44,557 nt of DNA from Lentisphaerae bacterium ADurb.BinA184. GTDB taxonomy: Bacteria; Verrucomicrobiota; Lentisphaeria; Oligosphaerales; MVZH01. This document shows, piece after piece, positions 14,374 through 19,808 of this stretch. The notes beneath the pieces are model-generated. The model worked only from the letters and a program-made list of their open reading frames with translations, was not told where the DNA came from and did no database searches. Location of the stretch: assembly GCA_002068325.1 (NCBI GenBank), contig MVZH01000009.1, forward strand, positions 1 to 44,557, written 5' to 3'. The position numbers and the translations under genes are program-made. Within the stretch, counting starts at the first letter, position 1. Every line of letters starts with the position of its first letter.

Positions 14374-17300
14374 ATGAAACGAACCGGGCTGTTGAACGGG
14401 ATCCTGACGGCGGCCGTGTGGGCGGGGTTGGCGGCGTGGCCGGCGCGGGCCGCGTGGCTACCCTTCCTCGAAGAGGATTTCAATACAACATGGGACGGCC
14501 AGGTGGTGTCGCCGGTCAATCTGCCGGGGGCGTCGTGGGCCGTCGGTCAATCGTGGGGGGGTGGCGGCGTTGTGACCTATGGCGGTGCGGTGAGCGGCAT
14601 CATGGAGGCGGATTTGGAGGCCAAGGCCAGCCTGCTGAGTGCCGGCGGCTATGTCAAGCCGACGCGCATCCTCGTCGAGGCCCGTGTCCAGACAGACTGC
14701 GCGGGCACCGATGGCGCCTGGCGCGGCGCCCTGGTCGGGTTTTCGAGCACAGCTACGGCGGGCAACGTGCGCGGCAACGAATACGGCATCGTCTTGCGCG
14801 GCGCCGATGGACAGGTCGGACTGCTGAACAGCAATGTCTTGGTTCAGGCGCTGCCCCATGCCGGCACCTGGGACAACACCCAGTACCATACCCTCTCCTA
14901 CTGGGTCGACACCGCCACAGGCAACGCCTACGATGTCATGGTGGACGGCGTCGCCTACGCCTTCTCGCCCGTGTCCTTCTTTACGGACGCCAACACCAAC
15001 TACGGCATGTTCTACGCCTCGTCGCAGTCGGCTGGCGGCTACACCCGCATGGACAACCTCCGTTTCAGCCGGATTCCCGAGCCGGCGTCGTTGGTTCTTG
15101 TGGCCGGCGGCGGGTTGCTGAGCCTGCGGCGGCGGAGGCGGGCCAGGAACGCTTGCGGCTGCCGTGCGGCAGGAACGATGTTCGCAGCCGCGGGGTCTGC
15201 CAAGCAGGCGACCTCCGCCGGAACCTGCCCGGACAATGAGGGGAACGCGACCATGAAGCGCAGTGCACAGGCCTGGGGGATTGTTGTGACGGCTCTTCTG
15301 GCGCTGGCGCCGGCACCAGCGCGCGCCGAATTCATCCCCAACCTGGCACTTGGCAGGCCGGTGTTCGCCACCAGCGCTGTCTGGGATTCCAACAACCTGG
15401 TGGACGAGGCGTTCGGCCTGCATGCCGGCAGCGCCACTTGGCATTTTGCCGCGCCCTATGCCGTCGGCCCCATCGCCCCCTACTTCGGCGGCGTTGACCT
15501 CGGCGGCGTCGGCAACACGGTGCAGATCGGCACCATCCGTATCCGGGGCGGCGATGAATACTCGGCACGCACTTGGACGCTGCAGAGCCGCGACAGCGCC
15601 GCCGATCCGCTCGACGGCCTGGTCGATTCGGGCTGGACGGACACCGGGGTCGGCCGCACCGGCGACACCACTGGCTTCCGCTACATGGTCCACTCCTTCG
15701 CCAGTCCAGTCGACACGCGCGCCCTCCGTTTCCGCATGACGGAGGGCGAGAACACCAACGACCGCCTCCAGGAACTCGAGGTTTTCAGCGCCGACCCTCA
15801 CGGCTACAGCCGCAACGCGATCGACGCCCTCGACCCGGCGCTGAGCCGCGAGGACGGCGTTCCGATCACCACGGCAACCAGCCTTGAGCGGCTCCGCGAC
15901 AACGCCTTTGACGAGGCAACGCCCGACGGCGTGCCTCCCTTACAGTACAACCTTGGCGACCCGCTGGCCCGCGCGGTCATGAACTATGACTTCACCTTCC
16001 CCAAAGCCATCACCCTCGACGGGCTGCGGTTCTACTTCATCCCGGGCATCGGCAACAGCCACGCGAACAGCGATCTGTCCATCCAAACCCTCGTTGACGG
16101 CGTGTGGACGACGGTCGCGGGCGGCTCCCAGGAACCCGATGACGGACTCAACGTGTTCGACTTCTCGGCCGCCCCCATCCTCACCGACCTGCTCCGCATC
16201 TCGCACACCGCCTACGACATCAACGGCGACCCCCGCAGCGCACTGTATGCCTACGAGATCGAACTCTACGGCACGCCAATCCCCGAGCCGGCCGCCCTGA
16301 TGCTGCTGGCCGGGGGCGGAACGTTGTTCCTGGGCCGCCGCCGCGGCGGCAGGCGGGCCGCTGGCAACCCTGCGACGAACCGGTCCTCGCACCAGCATCC
16401 AGGCACAGATAGGAGTGGAACCATGAACCGGAGCATGACGAGAGTCGGTATGGTGGCGGCGGTGGCGGTGTTCGCGGCAGTCGAGGCGTCGGCGGCAGTG
16501 TGGACGAACCTGGCGGTCGGCTCGACGGTCGGTGGCAACCAGGGCGCGCAAACGTGCCTGATCGATGAGGAAGGACAGGCTGGGAACCCCCGCTGGCACC
16601 AGACCAGCACGGATTTCGACGCGAACCCCGGCCGCATCTACTTCCATCGCGGGTCGGCCACGGACATGGCCTTCATCCGCTTCTGGGACTGGAGCGATCC
16701 CGCCACCCCTGGCCCCATGGCCTGGCGGCTGCAGCAACTGACCGGCGCCGATCCCAACAACGACGCGGACTGGACCGACATCGCCGGAACCAGCGAGGCC
16801 TCCCCCTCGGTGCCGCGGTACTACCATCAAACCTTCGCTCCGGTCACCACCTCGGCGTTGCGCTGGTACATCACCGGCGACAACCTTGACGGCGCCGGCA
16901 ACCTCCGCTACACCGAGTTCGAAATCTATGGCGCCGACCAGAATGCCCTCGACCTGACGGGCGCGGCCACCCAGATCGTCCATTCCAACGGCACCAACCT
17001 CGTCCCCTATGTCGCCGAGAACAACGTGTACAACCGCTACGACGGCCCCGGCGGCGCGCAGAAGGTCACCATGCTGTGGAGCGGAAAGCCCCTCATCATA
17101 GACCACCTCCGCATCTACTCCGAGGACCGCGCCAGCGGCATCCAGGCCTTCACCCTCCAATACCTCCGCCTCGACGGCGACCCCCTCAACGACGACGACT
17201 GGCTCGCCACCGGCATCGCCGAGACCAACAACTACACGCCCATCCTCAACTATGACCTGGGCGGCCTCGTCACCCTCGGCCTGCGCCTCGACATCACCGA

Positions 17301-17433
17301 CCCCTCGACCAACGGCGGCCACGAAATCCTCCGCCTGCGCGAACTGGAAGTCTTCGGCACCGTAATCCCCGAACCGTCCACGGTGCTGCTCCTCGCCGCC
17401 GCTGGCCTGCCGCTCCTGCGCCGCCGCGGCTGA
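14374..17433 (+). CDS. Three PEP-CTERM preproteins in one continuous frame
   Basis: The 1019-codon frame is three complete exported preproteins in series with no stop between them. Module 1 (1-293): signal peptide MKRTGLLNGILTAAVWAGLA, a LamG-like jelly roll, PEP at 235-237, a hydrophobic segment and RRRRR. Module 2 (294-683): signal peptide from M294 (MKRSAQAWGIVVTALLALAP), discoidin-like body (NLALGRPVFATSA), PEP at 637-639, then an Arg tail. Module 3 (684-1019): signal peptide from M684, a related discoidin-like body, PEP at 999-1001 and a final RRR. The linkers of 40-odd residues after modules 1 and 2 read like translated intergenic DNA. M294 and M684 each have their own strong ribosome site, so independent translation is likely. 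Exosortase could also cut a read-through product. Either three genes whose stops are missing or a true polyprotein. Confidence 0.85.
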   Translation: MKRTGLLNGILTAAVWAGLAAWPARAAWLPFLEEDFNTTWDGQVVSPVNLPGASWAVGQSWGGGGVVTYGGAVSGIMEADLEAKASLLSAGGYVKPTRILVEARVQTDCAGTDGAWRGALVGFSSTATAGNVRGNEYGIVLRGADGQVGLLNSNVLVQALPHAGTWDNTQYHTLSYWVDTATGNAYDVMVDGVAYAFSPVSFFTDANTNYGMFYASSQSAGGYTRMDNLRFSRIPEPASLVLVAGGGLLSLRRRRRARNACGCRAAGTMFAAAGSAKQATSAGTCPDNEGNATMKRSAQAWGIVVTALLALAPAPARAEFIPNLALGRPVFATSAVWDSNNLVDEAFGLHAGSATWHFAAPYAVGPIAPYFGGVDLGGVGNTVQIGTIRIRGGDEYSARTWTLQSRDSAADPLDGLVDSGWTDTGVGRTGDTTGFRYMVHSFASPVDTRALRFRMTEGENTNDRLQELEVFSADPHGYSRNAIDALDPALSREDGVPITTATSLERLRDNAFDEATPDGVPPLQYNLGDPLARAVMNYDFTFPKAITLDGLRFYFIPGIGNSHANSDLSIQTLVDGVWTTVAGGSQEPDDGLNVFDFSAAPILTDLLRISHTAYDINGDPRSALYAYEIELYGTPIPEPAALMLLAGGGTLFLGRRRGGRRAAGNPATNRSSHQHPGTDRSGTMNRSMTRVGMVAAVAVFAAVEASAAVWTNLAVGSTVGGNQGAQTCLIDEEGQAGNPRWHQTSTDFDANPGRIYFHRGSATDMAFIRFWDWSDPATPGPMAWRLQQLTGADPNNDADWTDIAGTSEASPSVPRYYHQTFAPVTTSALRWYITGDNLDGAGNLRYTEFEIYGADQNALDLTGAATQIVHSNGTNLVPYVAENNVYNRYDGPGGAQKVTMLWSGKPLIIDHLRIYSEDRASGIQAFTLQYLRLDGDPLNDDDWLATGIAETNNYTPILNYDLGGLVTLGLRLDITDPSTNGGHEILRLRELEVFGTVIPEPSTVLLLAAAGLPLLRRRG
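15238..15255 (+). promoter_or_regulatory. Internal ribosome site and start, module 2
   Basis: GAGGGGA at 15238-15244 lies eight bases before the in-frame ATG at 15253. A signal peptide follows directly. This supports separate translation of the second preprotein even though the upstream frame runs through it. Confidence 0.7.
16411..16425 (+). promoter_or_regulatory. Internal ribosome site and start, module 3
   Basis: AGGAG at 16411-16415 lies seven bases before the in-frame ATG at 16423, again followed at once by a signal peptide (MNRSMTRVGMVAAVAVFAAV). Confidence 0.7.
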
Positions 17434-17514: not shown

Positions 17515-18642
17515 TCAGGCCGACTCCAGCAGGCGCCTCCAGGCCTGCCGGTGCGCCGGCTGGGTGTTCCACGTGTCCAGGTGCTCCCCCACCTTCACGA
17601 GGAATGTCCGCCGCAGGGATTCCCCACCCAAGGCCCACACTCCGCGGCCAAACTCCACAAGGTCGAACACATAAACGTTCTGCCCGCCGGCAAACGCGCG
17701 GCCAATGCGGTCGTCCAGTGTCTGCCGGTCGTCGTCCGTGGTTCCGGGCGCGGCAAAGAAGATGTCCCTGACCTCTCGCCGCCGCGCCTTCTTGATCGTT
17801 CCCTCGACGTCGTCCAGCGTCAGCCGCCGATCCTTGACTTCGACGGCCAGAACCACCCGCCCGTCACGGTCAAGGCACTCCAGATCCGCCGCCAGCCCGA
17901 CCGCTTCGTCGCTGGCGTTGATCCGGGCCCGACTCACCCGAGCATAGAGGCCGAAGTGCTCTCCGATGGCGTCAAACAAGGCGCCACACAGGGCCAGGGC
18001 ACGATCCCCGCCGGACCGCTCGCCGAGGAACGCGGCCGCGAGTGCGGTCACGGTCTCCAGGCTGACTCTGGGGGGCACCGGATAGACGAAGCGCAGAGAC
18101 TGCTGGCGCCGGTACATGACGAGAAGCACTTGCCGGAAGAGCGTCAGCGTGAAGGCCGCATCCCTGCGGGCCTCCACGTCCTCAAGGACTCTGACCAGTG
18201 TATCCCATCCCGCGACGTCCTTCTTGCTCTCGTCTCCCCTCCTCATCCGCGGAATCCGCATGGGGTTGCCCACGTATGGATCGCTCGACGATCCCAGGAT
18301 GTCCTCCTGGTCGTGATTGAAGGGGGCCAGGACCTTGCTGCCCAGGCTGCGCGCGTCCCATCCGCTCACCTGTTCCCCTGCCTCGTGCCGTTTCTGGAGG
18401 CAGAGGCAGTCGAGGGCGGGATCCGTCAGCTTGCCGAGCAGTTGGACTGGCAGGCAGAAGCGGTACGCCACCTGCCGGTGGTTCACCGAGGCGGCGATGG
18501 CGTCGCGGAGGACAGGGTCAGGGACATACACCAGATCGGGTTGCGCCATGGCGTCCGAGACGACGCGCGCCCATTCGTCGAGGAGGATCGCCTTCGCCTT
18601 GGCGAGGTCAAGGGCCTGCGTTTCACGGACGGATCGCGGCAT
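17515..18642 (-). CDS. SacI-family type II restriction endonuclease
   Basis: The 375-residue protein resembles the SacI restriction endonuclease family. Its family-like block runs LDCLCLQKRHE, GWDARSLGSKVLAPFN and SSSDPYVGNPMRIPR at residues 77-132. A PD-(D/E)xK-type nuclease core is visible with D253 (AADLEC), E268 and K270 (LAVEVKD), spaced as in other Mg-dependent restriction enzymes. SacI itself cuts GAGCTC; specificity here is not proven by sequence alone. Its ATG has a GGAGAGG site and lies inside the end of the upstream methylase gene (20-base overlap). The methylase would therefore be translated first and the nuclease by coupling, a sensible order for self-protection. Base composition is like the neighbours, so transfer was not recent or came from a similar genome. 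Confidence 0.85.
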   Translation of the reverse strand: MPRSVRETQALDLAKAKAILLDEWARVVSDAMAQPDLVYVPDPVLRDAIAASVNHRQVAYRFCLPVQLLGKLTDPALDCLCLQKRHEAGEQVSGWDARSLGSKVLAPFNHDQEDILGSSSDPYVGNPMRIPRMRRGDESKKDVAGWDTLVRVLEDVEARRDAAFTLTLFRQVLLVMYRRQQSLRFVYPVPPRVSLETVTALAAAFLGERSGGDRALALCGALFDAIGEHFGLYARVSRARINASDEAVGLAADLECLDRDGRVVLAVEVKDRRLTLDDVEGTIKKARRREVRDIFFAAPGTTDDDRQTLDDRIGRAFAGGQNVYVFDLVEFGRGVWALGGESLRRTFLVKVGEHLDTWNTQPAHRQAWRRLLESA

Positions 18643-19639
18643 GCTTGCCTCTCCGGAACGGACGCCGCGGATCGAGAAGGATCAGTTGGGCGGCGGCCGG
18701 TTCGTCTGCCGGGTACTGTGCGGGGGCAGGCGTTGGCGGCTCGTAGTTGAGCCAGAGCGACTCCGTACGCTCCCCCTTCGAGGAGTTGCAGAGGCGGGCG
18801 GCGGCGTCAACCCGATGCCAGCCGTCATACAGGCGGTCCATGAGGGGGCAGCGGTACCCCGACAGGGCGACCAGCCCTCGTGCCGCCCGCAAGGCGGAGG
18901 CCAGCTCAGCGTGCTCCTCGTCCGTCATCTCGAAACCGTAGGCCTTGGCGTCTCCCCGTGCCTCGTGGGGGTATGGCGGGTCGCAGTAGAAGAGCGTCTC
19001 AGGCGAATCGTACCGGCGGATGATCTCGATCGCGGGCACGTTCTCGATCTGCACCCGTTGCAGGCGCTGGACGATGGCGGGGAGACCTTCGACACTTCCC
19101 AGCCAGCGCGAGACCGCCCCCGCCATCCCCGCGCGCGAGGTCAGCACACAGTGCGCCCACCGTCCCTCGGAACTCGTCTGGGCCAGGCCCGTACGGGTCT
19201 GCCGGGCTCTGACAAAGAAGCGTCGCGCCCTCTCCATCGCCGTCAGGCCAGGCGTCGGCGAGCAGGCCCGCACCAGCTCCTCGCGCGAGAAGGGGGTAAG
19301 GCTGATCAGGCGGATCAACTCCTCCCCGTGCTCGCGCAGGCAGGCGAAGAAATTCGTCACCTCCGAATCGAGGTCGTTGTAGGTCTCCACCGGCGCCGGG
19401 GGGCGGTTGATCAGGACGGCGGCGGATCCGCCGAACGGCTCGCAGTAGTGGGTGATGTCTATGGGCAGGAGGGGAAGGATGAAGTCAAGGTGGGAGAACT
19501 TGCCACCGTAGTATCCGAACGCGATCATCTTCTCGCGCCGTGACTGGGCCCGCGGCACCAGGCGACGACGGTTGAAGGCCGCTGCCGGCCCAGGCCCGAC
19601 GGCGGCTGAGGCGGACTTCGCGTTGCTCGCGGAACTCAT
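18623..19639 (-). CDS. D12-class (Dam-type) DNA adenine-N6 methyltransferase
   Basis: This is the partner of the SacI-family nuclease. The 338-residue protein has the layout of D12-class methylases. The AdoMet-binding motif YYGGKF (43-48) and EPFGGSAAVL (67-76) come first, then a variable recognition region, then catalytic DPPY (220-223) and a C-terminal LSGYRCPLMD block. It transfers a methyl group to N6 of adenine within the recognition site. The start at 19639 is chosen for its GGAG site; about 37 residues of Ala/Arg-rich sequence precede the first motif, so a start at 19528 is also possible. The gene lies just downstream of recA and overlaps the nuclease by 20 bases, so the three may be co-transcribed. 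Confidence 0.9.
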   Translation of the reverse strand: MSSASNAKSASAAVGPGPAAAFNRRRLVPRAQSRREKMIAFGYYGGKFSHLDFILPLLPIDITHYCEPFGGSAAVLINRPPAPVETYNDLDSEVTNFFACLREHGEELIRLISLTPFSREELVRACSPTPGLTAMERARRFFVRARQTRTGLAQTSSEGRWAHCVLTSRAGMAGAVSRWLGSVEGLPAIVQRLQRVQIENVPAIEIIRRYDSPETLFYCDPPYPHEARGDAKAYGFEMTDEEHAELASALRAARGLVALSGYRCPLMDRLYDGWHRVDAAARLCNSSKGERTESLWLNYEPPTPAPAQYPADEPAAAQLILLDPRRPFRRGKHAAIRP

Positions 19640-19808
19640 CGGTGCTCCATGCTCGACCTTGGCCGGGACTCCGGCGCCCGCCGGTAACGGCTGCGGGAAT
19701 GTAAGGGCAAAGCCTCCCCGCGCAAGGGCGGGCAGGAGGTGCCATGACGCCCCCCAAGGCGGCGGCCGCAACCGCCGGCGTGCCCGTCTCTCCGCCGTCC
19801 CTGTCCGT

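Follow-up and report, generated by a model that had tools for sequence, protein, structure and literature searches.

The frame at positions 14374..17433 is best described as one instance of a translational fusion between tandem PEP-CTERM genes that recurs in this bacterial family, and for which maturation as a polyprotein is a plausible hypothesis. The window, 44,557 nucleotides, is the whole of one contig (C9) of a 4.76 Mb genome (G000) that was assembled in 575 contigs and is 82% complete. In the reading that we favour, with modest confidence, tandem PEP-CTERM genes, mostly duplicates, were joined by the loss of stop codons, and the resulting chain is tolerated, each junction carrying a full set of processing signals.

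The frame encodes 1019 amino acids on the forward strand without an internal stop. Searches with the curated models TIGR02595/PF07589 returned three matches over the curated cut-off, at residues 234-256, 635-657 and approximately 998-1018. The first and second motifs are followed by 763 and 362 residues, respectively, and only the motif of unit 3 lies at the extreme C terminus. Each of the three units begins, at M1, M294 and M684, with charged residues and then a hydrophobic stretch, which together are signal-peptide-like in sequence and hydropathy. When the ribosome sites of the 17 in-frame ATGs were scored, the two strongest were those of the ATGs at 15253 (−8.5 kcal/mol) and 16423 (−6.9 kcal/mol); the first start, M1, scored −4.5 kcal/mol. 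These results bear out the original prediction of a single stop-free frame with PEP motifs at residues 235, 637 and 999 and strong internal ribosome sites at 15238 and 16411, and agree with its signal peptides at the same three methionines. In an ordinary operon of PEP-CTERM genes, each gene has its own stop and its own ribosome site. The present frame has such sites, at 15253 and 16423, and neither junction has a stop.

Unit 1 comprises a predicted signal peptide (14374..14451, residues 1-26), with an MKR n-region and a hydrophobic core ending in ARA, a mature domain (14452..15072) and a PEP-CTERM motif with its helix and Arg cluster (15073..15141; TIGR02595, 24.6 bits). It is joined to unit 2 by a stop-free linker of 37 codons (15142..15252), where the ribosome-binding site gagggg precedes the ATG at 15253. 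Unit 2 begins with a predicted internal signal peptide (15253..15327, residues 294-318), whose hydropathy peak of 2.4 follows a loop of net charge +8, and continues with a mature domain (15328..16278) and a second motif, helix and Arg cluster (16279..16344; 20.1 bits). The second linker, 26 stop-free codons (16345..16422), has the ribosome-binding site taggagtgg before the ATG at 16423. Unit 3 consists of a predicted internal signal peptide (16423..16494, residues 684-707; net charge of the preceding loop +7, hydropathy peak 2.5), a mature domain (16495..17364) and a PEP-CTERM motif with its Arg tail (17365..17433; 19.5 bits), where the only stop of the frame, a TGA, falls one residue after the motif.

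The mature domain of unit 1 has paralogues on two other contigs, C118 and C92 (36-38% identity), and may be a beta-sandwich, possibly concanavalin-like. Unit 2 gave a weak match to PF00754 (E 0.0082), and its model resembles, at low confidence, the F5/8-type-C (discoidin)/CBM32 fold. The structure models of these two units had a mean pLDDT of 49 and 46, respectively, and their fold matches are hints only. According to BLASTP, units 2 and 3 are distant paralogues (27% identity, E 2e-7). Downstream of the triple frame, at 17515-19771, a SacI-family restriction endonuclease gene adjoins a D12-class adenine methyltransferase gene beside recA. The endonuclease and methyltransferase genes are an apparent restriction-modification pair; they and RecA appear unrelated to the triple frame.

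To judge how unusual a missing stop is, we counted the residues between the end of each PEP-CTERM motif and the next stop in the surrounding sequence. The curated-model search found approximately 140 motifs in this genome, of which 128 were readable. A stop followed within 5 residues in 101 of the 128, within 10 in 115 and within 31 in 125, with a median of 1, as expected from the original premise that these proteins normally end soon after the Arg tail. This distribution matches that of Haft et al. 2006 (PMC1569441), who reported that 87% of PEP-CTERM motifs have fewer than ten residues after them and that the motif is C-terminal virtually without exception in known members, and who suggested that the few motifs lying well away from the C terminus may have no function. 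The last suggestion counts against a chain that is both joined and processed. Because 115 of the 128 motifs are followed by a stop within 10 residues, the absence of a stop is exceptional in this genome. Only three run-ons exceed 50 residues, two in the present frame and one on contig C114, and all three enter another complete PEP-CTERM unit. Over the readable tails of this genome and of a second, G001, stop-free run-ons occurred at 5 of 12 motifs with another PEP-CTERM motif closely downstream, versus 0 of 146 others (Fisher p ~1e-6).

By chance, an in-frame spacer of the length found here would be stop-free with a probability of ~0.16-0.20 per junction at 70% GC if stops were not under selection. 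The original prediction had supposed that lost stops would be harmless because exosortase removes the tail. This proved too simple: tails are very short, and the long run-ons enter only units with a signal peptide and a PEP-CTERM motif. Were long tails harmless, the ten tails of 12-31 residues would imply, by a rough estimate from base composition, ~20 tails of more than 31 residues; those entering non-PEP sequence numbered 0. Stop-codon reassignment was ruled out, as TGA, TAG and TAA each end other PEP-CTERM genes. A motif on contig C28 was also rejected as a run-on, its stop falling inside the span of the model. On that contig (L105, C28:23660-24082), a PEP-CTERM gene ends with a TGA at the Arg tail; the PEP-CTERM fragment that comes next in this frame has no signal peptide and looks like a broken tandem copy.

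Altogether, five stop-free junctions were found at four non-orthologous loci in two genomes of the same family and different genera. Each of the four loci has a single uninterrupted frame over several products, as a polyprotein does. On contig C114 of the present genome (L065), three related genes lie in tandem and the first two share one frame. In G001, two paralogous units share a frame of 1449 amino acids on contig C35 and another two a frame of 473 amino acids on contig C164. Eleven further genomes of the order were searched motif by motif (236 motifs), and no two motifs lay in one open frame. A junction model, applied to 388 genomes of the phylum and 119 of the class, detected no stop-free junction beyond the five used in training; its remaining long junction-like matches contain stops. 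Because this model scored only 15-49 candidates per genome, its result does not establish that such fusions are rare in other genomes.

All of these genomes are metagenome-type assemblies in hundreds of contigs, the two with fusions being fragmented and about 80% complete, and an error of sequencing or assembly could in principle hide a stop. We consider this explanation very improbable. It would need five independent junctions, all of them beside PEP-CTERM genes, the chance of which is <1e-4 even if 1 in 100 stop bases were wrong. The frames are intact on either side of the junctions, and the units are too divergent for the collapse of a repeat, with a nucleotide identity of at most ~69% where measured and, for units 2 and 3 of the present frame, the 27% protein identity given above.

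The fusion is, from sequence comparison, the derived state, because the single-unit paralogues end at a stop 0-3 residues beyond the tail. These include the paralogues of unit 1 on C118 and C92, a paralogue of unit 2 on C140 and, for the units of C35, genes on C204 of G000 and C136 of G001. In related genomes, the search found no orthologue of the C9 locus itself. Elsewhere in the present genome (L066, C21:28326-29324), the two members of a tandem PEP-CTERM pair share a frame, one TGA being the only stop in the spacer of ~46 codons, and units 2 and 3 of C114 are likewise in the same frame, one stop apart. Such pairs stand one mutation short of fusion, as would be expected of its precursors.

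The best reading of the linkers is that they are old spacers. On a codon score, linker 1 (−3.99) falls between coding sequence (−3.61, sd 0.20) and intergenic sequence (−4.29), and linker 2 (−4.31) is like the latter. Because the ribosome sites are retained, the linkers are intergenic-like and the paralogues bear stops, the triple frame would most simply be three cistrons whose stops were lost. Intergenic-like linkers fit a very recent loss of stops as well as they fit a linker that is discarded, and we counted them against a joined and processed chain. They are also what would be seen if stops had recently been lost, without adaptive value, in decaying or redundant duplicates, the chain not being properly processed and the units surviving through internal initiation. 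The strength of the internal ribosome sites of C9 and C164 points the same way, as does a dN/dS of about 0.65 between the joined copies of C114, and redundancy is frequent in tandem duplicates. Nevertheless, we think this account rather unlikely, as every downstream unit is open to its own PEP-CTERM motif and stop, no long run-on enters non-PEP sequence where the above estimate anticipates some twenty, and unit 2 of C114 has no conventional start by which it could survive. The dN/dS between joined copies at the other two loci (~0.25 for C35 and ~0.2 for C164) reflects stronger constraint than at C114, and these ratios show that the joined units evolved as proteins. They give no date for the fusion, as the divergence could mostly precede it.

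With respect to internal starts, the junctions are of two kinds. At both C9 junctions and at C164, a good ribosome site still precedes an ATG at the start of the downstream unit, and at C9 units 2 and 3 are probably also initiated separately from these sites. At C114, where the linker is ~18 codons long, the stretch from the Arg tail to the signal-peptide core of unit 2 holds no ATG, GTG or TTG; translation of unit 2 therefore most likely has to come from unit 1, and unit 2 is probably made only through the joined chain. At C35 (L157, ~3432, reverse strand), a CTG lies behind a strong ribosome site, in the place of the ACC-ATG of the other tandem units; it is possibly a start codon or a recently lost ATG. 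The downstream unit is open for about 400 codons at C114 and 720 codons at C35. Translation through the junction is thus the likely sole source of the downstream product at C114 and a possible one at C35; at C9 and C164 it is not required. Since no junction contains a stop codon, any ribosome that initiates at unit 1 must produce the joined chain as well.

The original prediction had offered two readings, cistrons that lost their stops or a polyprotein matured by repeated cleavage. Both are still tenable, C9 favouring former cistrons and C114 a joined chain, which suggests that they are two views of one thing. It might further be proposed that selection has kept the fusion, for equal amounts or for joint surface assembly of the products. 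In keeping with this, the fusion recurs at four loci, and the second units of C114 and C35 rely wholly or largely on the joined frame, yet have stayed open. We regard such selection as improbable: at C9 and C164 the internal ribosome sites have remained strong, the linkers of the fused junctions have no evident sequence in common, and searches of other genomes yielded no orthologue of any fused locus (C9 had only paralogues or motif-level matches, and C164 had no relative within the order), so that nothing points to maintenance over the long term.

Returning to the favoured reading, in which the joined chain is tolerated, the genome encodes one exosortase, on contig C227 (PF09721, E 9e-52; TIGR02602 over cut-off). 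It is nearest to XrtW, and its Cys, Arg and His motifs are visible in the sequence. The protein (L046) matches only the N-terminal part of the XrtW/XrtD models; the EpsI-like part is a separate gene, overlapping and downstream of the exosortase gene.

From the known roles of exosortase and signal peptidase, the following course may be envisaged. With the stop codon between neighbouring PEP-CTERM genes lost, and at C114 the start as well, the signal peptide of unit 1 would begin export, and the PEP-CTERM helix would halt transfer with the Arg cluster staying in the cytoplasm. After a short, positively charged cytoplasmic loop, the following signal peptide would restart export. Signal peptidase would then cut after the internal signal peptide and exosortase at PEP, which would let each mature protein, three in the present frame, be freed and would leave a small membrane hairpin. 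At C9, the internal ribosome sites would add separate starts for units 2 and 3. The loops at the junctions of the fused loci are 14-46 residues long with a net charge of +5 to +8. This charge fits the cytoplasmic side, and the signals appear in the order and on the sides expected, the helix running out-to-in and the signal peptide in-to-out. That these loci form an actual polyprotein system, in which PEP-CTERM signals alternate with internal signal peptides, exosortase and signal peptidase do the cutting and one pass of the ribosome yields several surface proteins, is a possibility to which we give somewhat less than an even chance; at loci of the C114 type, it would be the only route to the downstream product.

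A partial precedent is Bradyrhizobium fbcH, which encodes a fused cytochrome b/c1 precursor that is cut at an internal signal sequence. As proposed here, one chain with an internal signal sequence is separated by signal peptidase, a cleavage that in our case is presumed. By contrast, fbcH joins two subunits of a respiratory complex, and no sorting enzyme acts on the C terminus of the upstream product. PEP-CTERM/exosortase (EpsH) sorting is another parallel: each unit of the frame has a predicted N-terminal signal peptide along with the PEP motif, the hydrophobic helix and the Arg cluster of that system, and the genome encodes an exosortase as well as PEP-CTERM motifs numbering well above a hundred. 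Unlike the C-terminal motifs of known members, two of the three motifs in the frame are internal and are followed by another predicted signal peptide. The LPXTG/sortase, GlyGly-CTERM/rhombosortase and MYXO-CTERM systems also use a tripartite signal of motif, helix and basic cluster, the basic part being cytoplasmic (PMC3237569); these systems depend on other enzymes. In the literature examined on these three systems, we found no account of tandem in-frame units. Our searches found no paper on PEP-CTERM together with polyproteins and nothing on point concerning internal sorting signals and bacterial polyproteins.

The tag on which exosortase acts has been taken to be C-terminal, and PEP-CTERM motifs at internal positions have been suspected of having no function. 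The recurrent in-frame fusions are natural test substrates for whether exosortase can cut an internal signal, and for whether a sorting helix and a signal peptide together form a working in/out hairpin. If both hold, such chains will be misnamed by gene callers built on the assumption of a single sorting signal in each protein, and there would be a simple route from tandem duplicates to bacterial polyproteins. The recurrence at four loci suggests that the cutting enzymes of these cells tolerate, or use, a simple bacterial polyprotein.
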